Below, piece after piece: positions 2-7,620 of a DNA stretch of 10,000 bases (positions are counted from its first letter, which is position 1; each line of letters opens with the position of its first letter). The stretch spans positions 1 to 10,000 of the forward strand of contig NZ_JAIWOI010000361.1 of the NCBI RefSeq assembly GCF_020217005.1. Reading direction: 5' to 3'. The DNA is from Rheinheimera sp. (lineage in GTDB: Bacteria; Pseudomonadota; Gammaproteobacteria; Enterobacterales; Alteromonadaceae). The notes under the pieces were generated by a model that was not told the origin of the DNA, did no database searches, and saw nothing but the letters and a program-made list of their open reading frames with translations. Both the position numbers and the translations under genes were made by a program.

Positions 2-1378
<1,377 letters not shown>

Positions 1379-1403: not shown

Positions 1404-1820
1404 ATGGCAATGACAGTACAACTGGATGTGGTAAGTGCCGAAGAGCGGATTTTTTCTGGTCTGGTGGAATCCATTCAGGTAACAGGTAGTGAAGGTGAAT
1501 TGGGTATTTTACCTGGTCACATTCCGCTTCTTACTGGAATCAAGCCTGGTATGGTTCGTATCGTCAAACAGTTTGGCGAAGAGCATCTGATTTATGTCGC
1601 TGGTGGCGTACTTGAAGTACAGCCGCACAGCGTCACAGTGCTGGCCGACGTAGCGGTACGAGCTGAAGATCTGGATGAGCAAGCTGCTTTAGCTGCTCAG
1701 AAACGTGCTGAAGAAGCAATGCAACACGCAGGTGCTGACTTCAACTATGCAGAAGCTGCAGCTCAATTGGCTGAAGCTATTGCCCAGTTACGTTTAATCC
1801 AGAAACTTCGCAAAAAATAA
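1404..1820 (+). CDS. atpC: F1F0 ATP synthase subunit epsilon
   Basis: Epsilon subunit of the central stalk; it couples rotation to the beta subunits and can inhibit ATP hydrolysis through its C-terminal helices. The 138-residue product has the usual length. The N-terminal beta-sandwich (about residues 1-85) carries the conserved [33 protein letters not shown] and GGVLEVQP segments; the C-terminal part (about 90-138) is the alanine-rich helical hairpin ending [11 protein letters not shown]. The start ATG at 1404 is placed by a Shine-Dalgarno AGGAG at 1393-1397, six bases upstream, and matches the MAMT start of the E. coli protein. It is the last gene of the atp operon: a strong terminator begins about 20 bases after the stop. 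Confidence 0.98.
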
Positions 1821-1937: not shown

Positions 1938-3302
1938 ATGGCTTTAAACGTTGTGATCCTGGCGGCCGGTAAAGGCACGCGGATGAAATCTGCTTTACCT
2001 AAAGTGCTGCATAAAGTGGCGGAACGCTCTATGGTGCAGCATGTGATCGACACGGCCCGCTCTTTGGGCGCAGCGTCTATTAATCTGGTGTATGGTTATG
2101 GTGCCGATCAGCTGAAAGCTGCTTTAGGCGAACAGGATTTACACTGGGTGTTACAAGCCGAACAATTAGGTACAGGTCATGCTGTGCAGCAGGCTGTGCC
2201 TCATATCGCTGACAACGACACAGTGCTGGTGCTGTATGGTGATGTGCCTTTAACCCGTAAAGAGACCTTAGAAAAGCTTCTCGAAGTCCGTGCTGCTGAT
2301 GGTTTAGCTGTATTGACTGTACATCTGGCCAACCCAACAGGTTATGGTCGTATGGTGCGTGAAAACGGCAAAGTCGTAGGTATAGTTGAGCAAAAAGACG
2401 CTAACGCCGAACAGCTGAAAATCACAGAAGTGAACAGCGGCATTATGGCTGTGCCTGGCAAACAACTGAAAAAATGGTTAAGCCAGTTACAGAACAATAA
2501 TGCTCAGGGCGAGTTTTACCTGACCGATATTATCGCTATGGCGCACAAAGAAGGGGTGGACATCACAACAGCTCATCCTGCTACTGCCATTGAAACTGAA
2601 GGTGCCAATAACCGTGTACAACTGGCTCAGTTAGAGCGGGCTTATCAGGCACGTAAAGCTGAAGAATTAATGTTAAACGGTGCTAACCTGCGTGACCCTG
2701 CCCGTATTGATATACGGGGTGAGGTCACAGTCGGCAACGATGTGATGATCGACGTCAACGTGATTTTTGAAGGCAAAGTGGTGCTGGGCAATGGCGTGGT
2801 GATAGGCCCTAACTGTGTGATCAAAGATGCGGTGATAGGCGATAACACTGAAATTAAAGCCAATAGCATGATTGAAAAATCCAGTGTAGGTGTTGGCTGT
2901 TCTGTTGGTCCTTATGCCCGCATTCGCCCTGATTCAGTGCTGGCAGACGATAGCCATGTCGGCAACTTTGTCGAGCTGAAAAAAGCCACTTTAGGTGTAG
3001 GTTCTAAGGCGAACCATTTAACCTACTTAGGTGATGCGGTCATTGGCAGCAAAGTGAACATTGGTGCCGGTACTATTACCTGTAACTACGATGGTGCTAA
3101 TAAGTTTGTTACCACTATTGAAGATGGCGTTTTTGTCGGCTCCAACAGTTCTTTAGTAGCGCCAATCACTTTAGGCCAAAACTCCACTGTAGGCGCTGGT
3201 TCAGTAGTCACAGCCAGTGTAGCTGCAGATGAGTTAGTGGTAGCGCGCTCTAAGCAGCGCCATATCAGTGGCTGGAAAAGACCGGTGAAAATTAAGAAAT
3301 AA
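1938..3302 (+). CDS. glmU: Bifunctional UDP-N-acetylglucosamine pyrophosphorylase / glucosamine-1-phosphate N-acetyltransferase
   Basis: Cytoplasmic enzyme that acetylates glucosamine-1-phosphate and then couples it to UTP, giving UDP-GlcNAc for peptidoglycan and lipopolysaccharide. The N-terminal Rossmann-type uridyltransferase domain starts with the signature LAAGKGTRM and PKVLH and has the metal-binding Asp102 in LYGDVPL. The C-terminal half is a left-handed beta-helix of hexapeptide repeats, with the acetyltransferase segment [11 protein letters not shown] (catalytic His about residue 360) and [16 protein letters not shown]. The product is 454 residues, close to the 456 of E. coli. The ATG at 1938 is chosen because AAGGA at 1924-1928 lies nine bases upstream and gives the canonical [13 protein letters not shown] start; an in-frame TTG at 1929 would touch the ribosome binding site. 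atpC-glmU adjacency is common in gammaproteobacteria, but the usual partner glmS does not follow here. Confidence 0.98.
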
Positions 3303-3321: not shown

Positions 3322-3355
3322 ACAACCCGTCCTTAGTGACGGGTTTTTTGTTTTT
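3322..3355 (+). terminator. Intrinsic terminator of glmU
   Basis: Eight-base-pair stem AACCCGTC (3324-3331) / GACGGGTT (3338-3345) with loop CTTAGT, followed by six T (3344-3349) and a second T-run after one G. It starts about 20 bases after the glmU stop. Confidence 0.92.
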
Positions 3356-3437
3356 CAGGCTTATTACTGCGGTAAAAAACGGAATTCCTGCCATAACCTG
3401 AAACAAATCGAAAAAGACTTTTTGTCAGCCGTGATAG

Positions 3438-3453
3438 TGTTTCACGTGAAGCA
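3438..3453. promoter_or_regulatory. parS: parS-like ParB (Spo0J) binding site
   Basis: The sequence TGTTTCACGTGAAGCA matches the classical bacterial chromosomal parS consensus TGTTTCACGTGAAACA at 15 of 16 positions; the core TTCACGTGAA is a perfect ten-base palindrome. The site is intergenic, between the glmU terminator and the convergent small minus-strand gene. Position supports the call: in many gammaproteobacteria parAB lie just upstream of the atp operon near oriC, and chromosomal parS sites cluster in that region. It would nucleate ParB spreading for origin segregation. No second copy was seen in this window. The single mismatch could reduce affinity. Confidence 0.8.
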
Positions 3454-3483
3454 TTTAGCCTTTTTGACTTAATTAATAACAAG

Positions 3484-3666
3484 TCAAAACAAAACCGACA
3501 ACCAGCCCATAGGAAACAATAATTCCGCTGCCAGGGATTGTTGGTGCAAACTGAAGCTAAGCCACTGCAATACAGAATCAAAAGCTAATAACATCAGCAC
3601 CAGCACAATAAAGGCCGTTAAAAGCTGTCGTAAACCCGGTAATTGAATTTGGTCTGGTGTATTCAT
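3484..3666 (-). CDS. Small putative inner-membrane protein, 60 residues, unknown function
   Basis: I do not recognise the family. The start ATG (3664-3666, minus strand) is preceded by a good Shine-Dalgarno GGGAG/GGAGAG about seven bases away, which argues for a real gene. The product has a short polar N-terminus (MNTPDQIQLPG), one clear hydrophobic transmembrane segment at about residues 14-38, a polar SLHQQS turn, and a second hydrophobic stretch at about 45-60 ending at the stop, so it could span the membrane once or twice. It is convergent with glmU and divergent from the DUF1439 gene. No convincing promoter is seen upstream. A longer overlapping minus-strand frame at 3333-3581 lacks these signs and is not annotated. 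Confidence 0.6.
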   Translation of the reverse strand: MNTPDQIQLPGLRQLLTAFIVLVLMLLAFDSVLQWLSFSLHQQSLAAELLFPMGWLSVLF

Positions 3667-3772: not shown

Positions 3773-3800
3773 CGCCAGACTAGCTTTGAAGGACTATCAC

Positions 3801-4373
3801 ATGCTCACCAAACATATAATTCAGACAATAAGTTTGCTGTTACTTGTATCCTGTACTCAGTTGAATCATCTGGATATTTTCAGCCTGAAGCAGCAGGAAT
3901 TGCAGAGCTTGTTACTCAATCAATTAGAGCAACAGCAAGGAAAGGGGAAAATGTTGGGCTTGCCGCTGACGCTGACCGTACGGCAACTCGAACTGCAATT
4001 AGCGCCGGAAAACAAACAACAGATAGAGCTCAAACTTGCGCTTGGCGCTGAAGTGGATGCTTTATTCAAATCAGTACTGACAGATCTAAATTTACACTTG
4101 TCGGCTTTGCCTTATTTTGACGACGAGAAAAATGCCATTTATCTGAAAAACTTAACCATTCTGGATTCCAGTGTCGGCAGTGGCAGCTCGCAACTCAAAC
4201 TGGCACCTTTAAGCAACGAAGCTAAAGCTATTCTGGCGCAACTGTTGAATCGTCAACCTGTGTATAAGCTTGATTGCAGCAAAGTTACGGAAAAAGTCTT
4301 GTGTGGTATGCCTTTAACTTTAGTGTTGCAACCAGGTGAGTTGTTGTTAAAACCTAATTACTCAGCTCAATAA
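3801..4373 (+). CDS. YceB-like DUF1439 lipoprotein
   Basis: Probable outer- or inner-membrane-anchored lipoprotein of the DUF1439 family, related to E. coli YceB, whose exact function is not established. The 190-residue product begins with a lipoprotein signal (MLTKHIIQTISLLLL) ending in lipobox LVSC, making Cys18 the lipidated residue. The mature part follows the family pattern: an N-terminal helix with a leucine/glutamine-rich stretch (SLKQQELQSLLLNQL), then beta-rich sequence with GLPLTLTVRQLELQL, SALPYFDDEKNAIYLKNL (compare the YceB segment ALPVFDKEKGAIFLKEM), and the closing LVLQPGELLLKP. The ATG at 3801 is preferred over an in-frame TTG at 3786 because AAGGA at 3789-3793 is seven bases upstream of the ATG. 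It appears monocistronic: operator-like palindrome in front, terminator behind. Confidence 0.85.
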   Translation: MLTKHIIQTISLLLLVSCTQLNHLDIFSLKQQELQSLLLNQLEQQQGKGKMLGLPLTLTVRQLELQLAPENKQQIELKLALGAEVDALFKSVLTDLNLHLSALPYFDDEKNAIYLKNLTILDSSVGSGSSQLKLAPLSNEAKAILAQLLNRQPVYKLDCSKVTEKVLCGMPLTLVLQPGELLLKPNYSAQ

Positions 4374-4383
4374 GCATTTATTT

Positions 4384-4416
4384 GCCGTCCAGGCCCGACT
4401 GGCCCCGGCTTTTTTA
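4384..4416 (+). terminator. Imperfect intrinsic terminator after the DUF1439 gene
   Basis: GCCG (4384-4387) pairs with CGGC (4406-4409) and GGCC (4392-4395) pairs with GGCC (4401-4404) around loop CGACT, with a small internal bulge; six T follow (4410-4415). It starts about ten bases after the stop. It is G/C-rich and well placed, but less regular than the other terminators in the window. Confidence 0.7.
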
Positions 4417-4417
4417 T

Positions 4418-4464
4418 GTCCATGGATGGACGGTATGCCGTAATTGCAGGAGCACTGTTACGGC
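4418..4464. repeat. Cluster of palindromes, possible dispersed intergenic repeat
   Basis: Directly after the terminator lie GTCCAT-GG-ATGGAC (4418-4431), ACGG-TATG-CCGT (4430-4441) and GCCGTAA (4437-4443) with TTACGGC (4458-4464), the last enclosing TGC-AGGA-GCA. The first is compatible with the other two, but the last two are mutually exclusive foldings. Three nested or abutting inverted repeats in under 50 bases resemble small palindromic intergenic repeats of proteobacteria, but copy number cannot be judged from one window. Confidence 0.4.
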
Positions 4465-4505
4465 GATGAAAACACCGTTCAAAATGTAAAGATAAAACAC
4501 TCTAG

Positions 4506-4534
4506 TTGCAAATAGTTCTCATTTGATCTAGAGT
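4506..4534 (+). promoter_or_regulatory. Sigma70-type promoter of the DUF4198-EF-hand-DUF2271 operon
   Basis: TTGCAA (4506-4511) and TAGAGT (4529-4534) are separated by exactly 17 bases, and the spacer holds a Fur-like box. Transcription would begin around 4541, giving a leader of about 40 bases. The same layout recurs at 7752-7780 before the receptor gene, which strengthens both calls. Confidence 0.65.
4507..4521. promoter_or_regulatory. Fur box 1 (between -35 and -10)
   Basis: TGCAAAT-A-GTTCTCA fits the 7-1-7 Fur pattern (TGATAAT-A-ATTATCA type) with a well-kept right half, and is nearly identical to the perfect box at 7753-7767. Bound Fur-Fe(II) would occlude the promoter spacer. An eight-base inverted repeat, CACTCTAG (4498-4505) / CTAGAGTG (4528-4535), brackets it. 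Confidence 0.65.
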
Positions 4535-4549
4535 GGCGCTCACTATTTA

Positions 4550-4568
4550 AATGAGATCTATTCTCATT
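4550..4568. promoter_or_regulatory. Fur box 2 in the leader
   Basis: AATGAGA (4550-4556) and TCTCATT (4562-4568) form a perfect seven-base inverted repeat around five bases; in the 7-1-7 reading TGAGATC-T-ATTCTCA it matches the perfect box at 7753-7767 except for two bases of the left half. It sits between the predicted transcription start and the ribosome binding site, so together with box 1 it would give two Fur dimers across the promoter. In RNA the same repeat could form a short hairpin. Confidence 0.55.
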
Positions 4569-4582
4569 AACTGGAGCGCCTT

Positions 4583-5371
4583 ATGTTTAAACTAAAACCC
4601 CTGCTTTGTTCTGCCTCGTTGTTGCTGACTTTTACTGCGACTGCTCACACTCCTTATCTGGCACCAGCCAGTTTTGAACCTTTAGGTGGCTGGGTCACAT
4701 TGGACGCTGCTTTTGCTGAGAAGTTTTTTGTGCCTGAAGTAGCCTTTGACCAAAGCGAATTTAAAGTGCTGCAGCCTGATGGCAAAGCTGTGACACCAAA
4801 AGAGCTGTTTTCAGGTAAAACCCGCACTGCAGTGGCGCACCAGTTGGAGCAAGACGGCACTTATAAATTCAGCACGGGCCAACGTTTCGGTGCTGTATTT
4901 CGTAGCTGGCAACAAGACGGCAAAACCCATAACAGCAGAGATCCAAAGGAACAAATTCCTGCTGGTGCTAAGTTAACGGCGCATTTCCAGTCAGTCACCT
5001 TGGCTGAAACTTATGTCAGCAAAGGCGCACCAAGCCAAACCGCATTAAAAGCAAGCAACAAAGGGCTGGAGCTGGTGTTCCAAAGCCATCCAAACGACCT
5101 GTATATCCAAAGCCCAATCAAAGCCACTGTGCTTTATAACGGCAAAGCTTTGGCCGAACAAAAAGTGCAGGTGTATCCAGCCAATTCAGCCGAAGCTGAA
5201 ACTAAAGCCTCGAAAGAACTGGCCACTGACAAACAAGGCCAACTGACTTTTGAACTGGATAAAGCAGGTACCTATCTGCTGCTGACCCGTTTTCGTACCG
5301 ATGCACCAGCGGGTGCCAAAGCCCCAACCTACAGTTACAGCTATAGCGCTGTAGTTGAAGTCACTGAATAA
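4583..5371 (+). CDS. DUF4198 family periplasmic protein (NikM/CbiM-accessory-like)
   Basis: Exported protein of the DUF4198 family, whose members are often linked to metal uptake systems; the precise role is unproven. The 262-residue product starts with a Sec signal peptide (MFKLKPLLCSASLLLTF) and an ATA cleavage motif, so cleavage after Ala21 would leave histidine as the first mature residue (HTPYLAP). The family-typical opening HTPYLAPASFEP and GGWVTLDAAFAEKFFVPE follow; the rest is beta-rich with two immunoglobulin-like portions, the second (about 165-262) ending TYLLLTRFRTDAPAG. GGAG at 4573-4576 supports the ATG at 4583 with a six-base gap. It is the first gene of a three-gene unit behind a promoter with two Fur-like boxes and is followed nine bases later by the EF-hand gene, suggesting an iron-responsive uptake function. 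Confidence 0.82.
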   Translation: MFKLKPLLCSASLLLTFTATAHTPYLAPASFEPLGGWVTLDAAFAEKFFVPEVAFDQSEFKVLQPDGKAVTPKELFSGKTRTAVAHQLEQDGTYKFSTGQRFGAVFRSWQQDGKTHNSRDPKEQIPAGAKLTAHFQSVTLAETYVSKGAPSQTALKASNKGLELVFQSHPNDLYIQSPIKATVLYNGKALAEQKVQVYPANSAEAETKASKELATDKQGQLTFELDKAGTYLLLTRFRTDAPAGAKAPTYSYSYSAVVEVTE

Positions 5372-5380
5372 CAGGAGTTT

Positions 5381-6292
5381 ATGATGCAACGCAGAAGCAC
5401 TGCCCTTAGTTTGTTTTTAGCCATCACCAGCTGTTATTTAGCTGCCGATGAAAAAGCCCCGAAAAAACCAGCTCATCAGCCTACAGCTCAGGGCAAAGCC
5501 AGTTTTATTCAGGATTATGATCTGAATAAAGACGGCACTGTCAGTGAGGCTGAATTTGCAGAAGTACGCCAGCGGCGTTACAGCGCGATGGACGAGAACA
5601 AAGATGGTCAGGTGTCGGTGGACGAATACGTCAATGAATACGCCGGTCGCTTGGATAAAAAACTCGATACCGAACGTACAGGCCAAATTAAACAAACGCT
5701 GGTGCGTATCGAAGCTCTGGATCAAAACAAAAGCAAAACCATAGGCCATGATGAATACAATGCCTCAGGTGATAAAGCTTTTGCCTATATAGATACCAAT
5801 AAAGATGGTGTGATCAGTAAAGCTGACCCGCTACCAGAGCGCGAGCGTAAACCTGACGCCAAACAGACTGTGCGCGCCCGCCCGGCTTTAGTGATGCCAA
5901 CGACCCACAGCGTGGCCGGTATGCTGGATATGTACGACCAGAATGGCGACGGCAAAGTCGACAAAACAGAGTACCAACAGCAACGCGATGCCGCTTTTGC
6001 CCGTACTGATCTGGACAAAAACGGCGAGCTGAGCAGCGATGAATACCTGAACGAGTTTGTAGACCGTCTGGATCGTCAGATTGCAAAAACCCGTACCGCT
6101 CAGTTAAAGCAGGCTGCAGTACGTTTTAAAGCCCTGGATAAAGACAACAATCAGCAAGTCAGCGTTGCTGAGTTTAATGCTTCAGGCGAGCGTATGTTTA
6201 AACTTTGGGATACAGATCTAAACCAGCAAGTGACTATGGCTGAAGCTTTGCCTGTAATTGAAACTGAAGTAACCAAAGGTACTGCTGAGTAA
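5381..6292 (+). CDS. Exported EF-hand protein with eight loops in an exact tandem duplication
   Basis: Predicted secreted or lipid-anchored calcium-binding protein, 303 residues (from the ATG at 5381). The hydrophobic N-terminus STALSLFLAITSCYLAA could be cut at the lipobox-like ITSC (Cys18) or by signal peptidase I after YLA/YLAA. Eight twelve-residue EF-hand loops begin at residues 47, 71, 114, 138, 186, 210, 253 and 277: the second four repeat the first four with a constant offset of 139 residues. Loops 1, 2, 5 and 6 look canonical (for example DLNKDGTVSEAE, DQNGDGKVDKTE), as does loop 4 apart from Asp at position 12; loops 3, 7 and 8 have lost the position-6 glycine (Lys, Gln, Gln). A linker of about 35 residues (ERERKPDAKQTVRARP and on) joins the halves. 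SD AGGAG at 5373-5377 is only three bases from the first ATG and six from the second (5384), so the second may be the true start. The stop overlaps the next gene's start. Confidence 0.88.
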   Translation: MMQRRSTALSLFLAITSCYLAADEKAPKKPAHQPTAQGKASFIQDYDLNKDGTVSEAEFAEVRQRRYSAMDENKDGQVSVDEYVNEYAGRLDKKLDTERTGQIKQTLVRIEALDQNKSKTIGHDEYNASGDKAFAYIDTNKDGVISKADPLPERERKPDAKQTVRARPALVMPTTHSVAGMLDMYDQNGDGKVDKTEYQQQRDAAFARTDLDKNGELSSDEYLNEFVDRLDRQIAKTRTAQLKQAAVRFKALDKDNNQQVSVAEFNASGERMFKLWDTDLNQQVTMAEALPVIETEVTKGTAE

Positions 6293-7620
6293 TGAAACGT
6301 TTTGTCTGGCCATTGACGCTATTATCGTTCAGTCCTGTGCTGGTGCTGGCTGACTCTGTCAGTTATCAGCAAGATGTTGCAGGGAAGCCGCTGAAACTGC
6401 AGTTGGAAGGCGTCAGCCAAAAGGACTGGCAGGCCAGACTACCTCAGTTTCAGCACTGGTTAACTGAGGCTAAACCAAAACAGCATGAGTTAATTCAGCT
6501 CTGTGAAGAATGGCGTGCTTTAAGCCAACAAAGTTACAGCTGCCGTTTAGGAGCTATAGCACAGCAATGGCAGCACGCCGTAAAAAGCCAGGTGTTGCCG
6601 GATAGAGTGGAGTTACGCCGTCAAACCAGAGCCATTGAGCAGCAAGTCGTTTCAGCAGCTAACTACAATACTGTGGTCTGGCAGTTGGACGGCTTAGCTA
6701 ATGCACGGCTGCTGGATGATACCGCTGTACTGCTAAAAAGCTGGTTCCCAGAGTTAAAGCAAATGGATCTGCAATCTGGTGTCAGCCGATTGGTATGGTC
6801 TGATGCACTTAGCACAAAGCTGAGTCTGGGTACTGAACAGCCGTTGTTACAGCAACTGCAACTGAATTCAGTGGCTTTAGCTCAGACTGAAACTGCTAAT
6901 GCTCAGCAAGGGTACAAAGTGTCGTACCGGACTTTTAGCCCGCTATTGAATCCTGCAGAAGGCTGGCCAGTGGAATACGGCCCAACAGCCACAGTGTTGG
7001 CTAAAGATGCAGTCACAGCCTATTTACTGGCGCAAAGTCTGGCGGTGCTGGACTTGAAGCAGGGCCAGCAGCTGACCGATCAACAGCAGGCCGCAGCTTT
7101 AATCAAAACTGACTCGGCCAACTGGTATGCATCCAACTCCTGGTATGACTATCTGGCGGACAAAAGCCAAAGTCAGCAGCAGGGGCTGCAAATTAGCTAT
7201 CAGTTGCCCAAATTCAGTGATGGAAATTACAAAAGACCTTATGTTTCGGTATGGCTGACCGATCAGCAGAAAAAACCTGTACGCCAATTGAGTTTGGTCG
7301 GCCAGCAAAGCCGCTGGTATCAGGAGCTGAATCACTGGTGGCGCCGGTTGGGTCGGAAAAATCCGGAGCAAATAGATCAGATTGCCGGAGCCACCCAAAA
7401 ACCTGGCACTTATCAGCTGCAGTGGGATGGTCGTGATCAGCAAGGTGCTGTGGTGCCATGGGGTCAGTACCAGTTGCATCTGGAAGTGGCGCGTGAGCAT
7501 GGTGGCCATGAACATTTAACTCTGCCGCTGAATTGGCAAGCCGATCTGAAGCCATTAGAGCTACAAGGTAAAGCTGAACTGGGGCTGGTGCGCCTGCAGC
7601 TTCAGAGCAAAGATGGCTAA
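6292..7620 (+). CDS. DUF2271 protein with N-terminal degenerate ApbE-like domain
   Basis: Predicted periplasmic protein, 442 residues, with signal peptide MKRFVWPLTLLSFSPVLVLA cut before Asp21. Residues about 300-415 fit DUF2271: RPYVSVWLTD, a central LNHWWRRLGR and the closing GTYQLQWDGRD, WGQYQLHLEVAREHGGHEH. Residues about 30-256 look like an ApbE flavin transferase that has lost activity: WQLDGLANA (128-138 region) for LDLGGIAKG, LQSGVSRLVW for LVNAGGD, LLNPAEGWPVEYG (218-230) for IIDPRTGRPV, and TVLAKDAVTAYLLAQSLAVLD (split here only for description) with Tyr244 and Gln248 where active enzymes have the metal-binding Asp and Thr. The ATG overlaps the previous stop by one base (TAATG), indicating translational coupling; no strong ribosome binding site is present. 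The protein is rich in glutamine. DUF2271 proteins are often found near PepSY and ApbE genes, hinting at flavin-dependent redox in metal uptake. Confidence 0.78.
   Translation: MKRFVWPLTLLSFSPVLVLADSVSYQQDVAGKPLKLQLEGVSQKDWQARLPQFQHWLTEAKPKQHELIQLCEEWRALSQQSYSCRLGAIAQQWQHAVKSQVLPDRVELRRQTRAIEQQVVSAANYNTVVWQLDGLANARLLDDTAVLLKSWFPELKQMDLQSGVSRLVWSDALSTKLSLGTEQPLLQQLQLNSVALAQTETANAQQGYKVSYRTFSPLLNPAEGWPVEYGPTATVLAKDAVTAYLLAQSLAVLDLKQGQQLTDQQQAAALIKTDSANWYASNSWYDYLADKSQSQQQGLQISYQLPKFSDGNYKRPYVSVWLTDQQKKPVRQLSLVGQQSRWYQELNHWWRRLGRKNPEQIDQIAGATQKPGTYQLQWDGRDQQGAVVPWGQYQLHLEVAREHGGHEHLTLPLNWQADLKPLELQGKAELGLVRLQLQSKDG

Follow-up and report, generated by a model that had tools for sequence, protein, structure and literature searches.

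Does the 16-mer that lies just past glmU in this Rheinheimera DNA serve the chromosome as a parS site, and how is its departure from the parS palindrome to be read? The window (the whole stretch of 10,000 nucleotides analysed here) contains TGTTTCACGTGAAGCA, which, as the first-pass annotation had claimed, is one base off the classical parS consensus TGTTTCACGTGAAACA. Its left half-site TGTTTCAC is perfect, the right half-site carries the single change, and the CACGTG core is intact. We consider it very probable that the 16-mer is a genuine chromosomal parS of an auxiliary kind, a third site in its genome that lies on the parAB-atp-glmU side of oriC. What is new here is one more candidate site, an imperfect one, in a known class of chromosomal parS.

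The 16-mer and its window

A search of the window for the parS consensus with up to three mismatches returned the 16-mer as its only match, while shuffled versions of the window gave a mean of 0.06 matches and at least one match in 12 of 200 shuffles. The site is flanked by glmU and a small reverse-strand ORF without a Pfam match (Table 1). The description of the site as intergenic holds for the window's genome; in five congeners the 16-mer is inside a gene, and the term therefore does not apply to the site generally. In the literature searched, the 16-mer was not found printed in either orientation. Farther on, between glmU and deoR-glmS (window 3786-7620 and L010 1365-4049), there are genes for a DUF1439 lipoprotein, a DUF4198 protein, an EF-hand protein and a DUF2271/ApbE-like protein, in an order that is identical in six congeners compared.

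Table 1. Positions of the 16-mer and neighbouring features in the window.
Feature	Position	Strand	Basis or remark
atpD, named from sequence	32..1378	+	true start probably before the window, which begins the contig
atpC, end of the atp operon downstream of parAB	1404..1820	+	Pfam; gene order
glmU	1938..3302	+	Pfam; present in 22 of 22 genomes of the genus
Probable glmU terminator: 8-bp inverted repeat, then T run	3324..3350	+	sequence; inverted repeat 3324-3345
Possible orfX remnant around the 16-mer	3424..3474	-	local alignment to G010; stops on either side in the old frame
parS-like 16-mer TGTTTCACGTGAAGCA	3438..3453	+	consensus match; T form in 12 genomes, C form in 17 others
60-aa ORF, membrane-like by eye	3484..3666	-	adjoins glmU or orfX in six congeners compared

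Partition genes, origin and the recF pair

The window's genome (G000, 3.92 Mb, in pieces, most of those met here being 10 kb long) has three places with at most one mismatch to the parS consensus, all of them near dnaA and parAB, compared to none for a reversed-pattern control. With up to two mismatches there are four places and six in the control; because there is no excess at this level, the signal resides in the one-mismatch class only, and a place on C73 with two mismatches was put down to chance. Over the 22 genomes of the genus, the one-mismatch class comprises 28 places versus 5 control places (summed by hand). An even scatter of one-mismatch sites was seen neither in this genus nor in its sister genus, g18.

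Besides the window site, the one-mismatch places of G000 are two copies of TGTTCCACGTGAAACA at C362:9605 and C363:244. Both lie in recF (named from sequence), in a 366-aa frame that runs across a piece border, at LFHVEQ and LFHVEH. This recF pair, located on the other side of dnaA from the third site, is genus-wide: its two sites are 636-642 bp apart in 21 of the 22 genomes, all but G004. The 11 genomes of clade A have TGTTTCACGTGGAACA twice, while the 10 genomes of clade B have TGTTCCACGTGGAACA together with either TGTTCCACGTGGAACC (nine genomes) or a second TGTTCCACGTGGAACA (one genome); the location in recF was checked in G000 and G015 and is taken from sequence and spacing in the others.

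The gene order on C364 is mnmG, rsmG, parA, parB, atpI, atpB ... atpA, and on the map of G015 the end of this piece is separated from the window start by about 0.82 kb, the room of atpG, after which the window's atpD is next. Here parAB lie just upstream of the atp operon, an arrangement that the first-pass annotation had described as frequent in gammaproteobacteria. Pfam backs rsmG, parA, parB, atpC, glmU, deoR, glmS and dnaN, and the remaining names come from reading the sequence. Piece order and an estimated gap put the window site of G000 about 8.6 kb beyond parB, 23 kb away from the start of dnaA and 26 kb from the closer of the two recF sites; for G015, which is a single contig, the distances are 12.8 kb (parB) and about 28 kb (dnaA). 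The parAB-atp order, the unscattered one-mismatch sites and the DNA-level conservation in two genera described below all support the claim that the window is origin-proximal and its 16-mer parS-like.

The same annotation had held glmS to be missing and the site to be hosted in the gap left by it. The gene is present, backed by Pfam, at C67:2223-4049, about 8.8 kb past the window site (in relatives, C67 begins next to where C66 ends). What stands of this proposal is that the site has glmU on one side and glmS on the other, both here and in most genomes of the sister genus that show the two genes.

A single ParB gene was found in G000, next to parA, by a search that used the TIGR00180 model alone. 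The protein has 293 residues, of which residues 1-233 align with Caulobacter ParB, and it carries Gly-170, Lys-171, Ser-172, Arg-173, Asn-178, Gly-201 and Arg-204, which are described as parS-contacting or parS-type residues in the available part of PMC7383237. Position 162 has His for Gln, and positions 179 and 184 are Leu and Gln. Arg-173 and Gly-201 are the parS-type residues where, according to the same part of that source, Noc has Gln and Arg; the only TIGR00180 match is thus a chromosomal ParB with parS-type DNA-binding residues and not a Noc-type protein. ParB is found in 21 of the 22 genomes of the genus, and in G004 (91% complete) neither ParB nor a site of the wider pattern was found.

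Conservation of the third site inside and outside orfX

The exact window 16-mer is present in six of the 22 genomes of the genus (G000, G002, G006, G010, G012 and G015), always between glmU and the small reverse ORF, and the third site is missing from the other 16, among them the ten genomes of clade B. In the five congeners other than G000, the 16-mer is located inside a reverse-strand gene of 142-146 aa, here called orfX, which has no Pfam match. A protein search of the genus recovered the genes of these five congeners and elsewhere weak matches only, with no orfX in G000. Aligned locally to orfX of G010, the G000 region around the site scores 60, compared to a maximum of 33 in 100 shuffles, with the site itself contributing about half of the score; when the flanks are taken without the site, the left one is beaten by 67 of 200 shuffles and the right one by 1 of 200. 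In G000 the old orfX frame is broken by stops ahead of the site and beyond it. The window therefore likely holds a decayed orfX with the 16-mer kept, a reading that is helped by position and whose remnant is weak without the site. In the remaining six genomes of clade A, likeness to the orfX region is confined to the glmU terminator, and the site is absent. In a glmU tree, G000 pairs with G008 in a basal position within clade A, by which orfX and the site look ancestral in this clade, with several losses; support is modest (51-90 on nearly all clade A branches), and hence the number of independent losses is an estimate only.

The five orfX genes share 67-94% pairwise identity, and their longest invariant DNA run is the 26 bp of AAATGCTTCACGTGAAACAACATCAG, which extends across the site, while the next longest is 9 bp. 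Of 64 codons whose amino acid is invariant (Met and Trp excluded), the five genes agree in the codon itself at 19: seven of seven within the 26-bp run versus 12 of 57 outside it. By chance, the four codons lying wholly in the site would all fall among the 19 with a probability of 0.006; for the seven codons, chosen after the run was seen, the value is 0.00008. A comparison of the five g1 orfX genes with three g18 orfX genes, which were chosen for having the exact site, gives the same picture, with 0 of 60 comparisons differing at the LHVK codons versus 356 of 562 elsewhere.

Searching 395 genomes of the family with TGCTYCACGTGRAACA gave 31 with a match: six of the window's genus, 23 of the 31 of g18, one of g5 and one of g49. 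The pattern occurs once per genome in both main genera, and the third site of g18 has the T form in six genomes and the C form in 17. The two matches outside these genera are at G416:C190:9830 and G069:C1:1358906. In 30 of the 31 g18 genomes there is one recF-type one-mismatch site (two in G361), and a check of G221 and G202 located it in recF in both; six of those 30 also carry the window 16-mer, and further one-mismatch sites are listed for none of the 31 genomes. All 23 third sites of g18 have glmU on one side, about 1.3 to 17 kb away, and 19 have deoR or glmS on the other, neither being in the fetched stretch of the remaining four. In 24 of the 29 genomes (19 of 23 in g18 and five of six in the window's genus) the recF-type site and the third site could both be placed, on a shared contig, on a single contig taken as circular or, for G000, by the piece order with an estimated gap; the distance between them is 26-71 kb. 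In the other five genomes they are on different contigs.

In an ungapped alignment of the 29 sites with 30 bases on each side, 15 of the 16 site positions are invariant and none of the 60 flanking ones is; the invariance of the site is partly due to selection since the rows were chosen by matching it. The sixteenth position, base 5, is T or C, and the departure from the consensus is kept in 29 of 29. Because the rows were picked in this way, the eight g18 genomes without a third site were inspected by position, and only G362 came within three mismatches in the 19.9-kb stretch. In that genome (L198; L296 12814-13227) orfX retains LHVK over a broken DNA site, CTT CAT GTG; it is the single case of a gene without a site among 11 orfX orthologues. 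The third site is thus conserved as DNA in 29 genomes of two genera, with frozen codons, and absent from 24 of 53.

At E below 1e-30, orfX was found in six g18 genomes, of which three carry the T form of the site, two the C form, and one, G362, the broken site. The search scored up to 10 initial candidates per genome and weaker matches elsewhere were taken as paralogues, so that some orfX may be missed. The other 18 site-bearing g18 genomes gave no orfX genome-wide at E<1e-30, nor by tblastn near the site. Together with G000, 19 genomes therefore have the site without orfX, and these on their own again show 15 of 16 invariant columns within the site against 0 of 60 outside it. Remnants of orfX were sought in three such g18 genomes and were not borne out, the likeness of the flanks being weak without the site; the numbers of 200 shuffles reaching it (left, right) were 6 and 40 in G202, 15 and 69 in G342, and 56 and 3 in G352. 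For the site-only g18 genomes, loss of orfX is suggested by shared gene order.

A general habit of parS beside glmU in gammaproteobacteria was also considered and rejected: a one-mismatch scan of 80 named loci (about 1.59 Mb around glmU) gave one match (L068), with none in the control. With T or C allowed at the variable bases, six of the 80 match (L051-L055, which have the C form, and L082), and R. soli (L063) does not. Four other genera of the family have an extra one-mismatch parS-like site (L133 8190, L134 7973, L132 7543 and L131 8521), which lies inside glmS in G022, about 50 bp past atpC in G023, about 6.6 kb past atpC in G045, and within a long ORF of G070, about 51 kb away from the recF-type site; in the first three of these genomes the mismatch falls in the CACGTG core. 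Outside the family, G094 carries a pair of exact parS sites with about 7 kb between them (L135 2760 and 9882), one of which lies between gyrB and recF.

Proposed role, rival explanations and known systems

The comparative evidence says that the third site should be functional. It is not essential, being absent from eight of 31 g18 genomes and 16 of 22 genomes of the window's genus. From its position, its rarity, its conservation and a ParB with parS-type residues, we infer that dimers of the single chromosomal ParB would load at it, as established ParABS biology suggests. CTP would then switch the loaded ParB into sliding clamps that spread over neighbouring DNA, the spread ParB would become part of the partition complex that nucleates at the recF pair, and ParA would move this complex. 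The third site would in this way widen or back up the complex built at recF. In some members of the two Rheinheimera-like genera the site is within orfX; elsewhere, the window included, it stands without the gene, which would be explained most simply by loss of orfX.

Could the 16-mer instead be the operator of another protein, a transcription factor that binds a palindrome with a CACGTG core and controls a neighbouring gene, with its likeness to parS incidental? Fifteen g18 genomes with the C form and no orfX show a fairly well conserved right flank and, 80-158 bases farther on, the start of a dicarboxylate-symporter-type gene; there may be a promoter element at the site in those genomes. Yet the neighbours change while the 16-mer stays: orfX may enclose it, glmU and the small ORF may flank it, and in other genomes it precedes the symporter gene or adjoins a GntR gene. 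Moreover, its sole variable position, the T or C at base 5, also varies in the recF-type sites (among other positions there), and the pattern occurs once per genome in both genera. We consider an operator improbable. A constraint on the protein, whereby orfX needs LHVKQ and the 16-mer survives by chance where the gene is gone, is less probable still. It would account for LHVK in all 11 orfX orthologues, even in G362 with its broken DNA site, and for the several lineages that lack both gene and site. On the other hand, synonymous positions are frozen in the site, 19 genomes keep it without orfX, and six distant orfX homologues have, in place of LHVKQHQ, LRVGMEQ (four), LQVGLEQ (one) or LLIADHP (one), with HVK kept in none. 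Chance likeness to parS can draw on the lack of excess over control in G000 at two mismatches, but conservation in two genera on the same glmU stretch, where no scattered one-mismatch sites occur, refutes it in practice, and we give it almost no credence.

For an auxiliary parS, then, the departure from the palindrome could reflect a tuned, weaker site or a founder base that was never repaired. A bolder reading is that of a deliberately imperfect centromere, with a selected mismatch and weaker ParB loading on one side of the origin, which shaped the protein code of orfX and outlived the gene in several lineages. Its basis is the mismatch kept in all 29 sites of two genera, 19 of them outside any orfX; a leucine codon would also hold the mismatch base inside orfX, but not in those 19 genomes. 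The weak likeness of the flanks to orfX once the site is left out lowers its odds, and we regard it as possible but rather unlikely. A narrow look at the literature met no account of a parS that had survived the gene around it, although one may exist.

Related genomes with and without the extra parS, with the site in a living gene or without the gene, form a natural series, which makes two questions testable: what parS sites away from the main cluster do, and whether an imperfect half-site is tuned or tolerated. In orfX, a centromere-like site is seen constraining the codons of a gene.

Among known sites, the recF pair of the same genus has the core in common with the window site, and in G000 recF codes LFHVE in the phase of orfX MLHVK; the pair is present in all genomes but one, whereas the window site is optional, with a fixed departure from the palindrome. 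The available parts of the sources on Pseudomonas aeruginosa describe parS1-parS4, which are likewise 16-bp palindromes with a CACGTG core, few in number and near oriC and parAB (PMC4368675, PMC5098823). All four are bound in vivo, two of them being one base off the palindrome, while parS-like sites with two mismatches are not bound (PMC5098823). A one-mismatch form is thus bound there, and base 5 is C versus the T of the classical consensus. One near parS suffices for segregation in that species (PMC4368675), which fits a dispensable third site here. Differences are that the P. aeruginosa sites are within 15 kb of oriC, compared to about 23 kb from dnaA for the third site, and that the window's mismatch, at the third base of the half-site, is absent from the parS variants tabulated in the available part of PMC4368675. 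The P. aeruginosa half-parS (GTTTCAC / GTTCCAC), as far as the accessible text of PMC10419367 describes it, resembles the window site in its one perfect GTTTCAC half but has no second arm, with 971 GTTCCAC motifs, whereas here 15 of 16 positions are kept over both arms. Noc-binding sites are related 16-bp sites of a ParB relative; judged by the portion of PMC7383237 at hand, they differ in their partner, as the ParB encoded here has Arg-173 and Gly-201, the parS type, and not the Gln and Arg of Noc.
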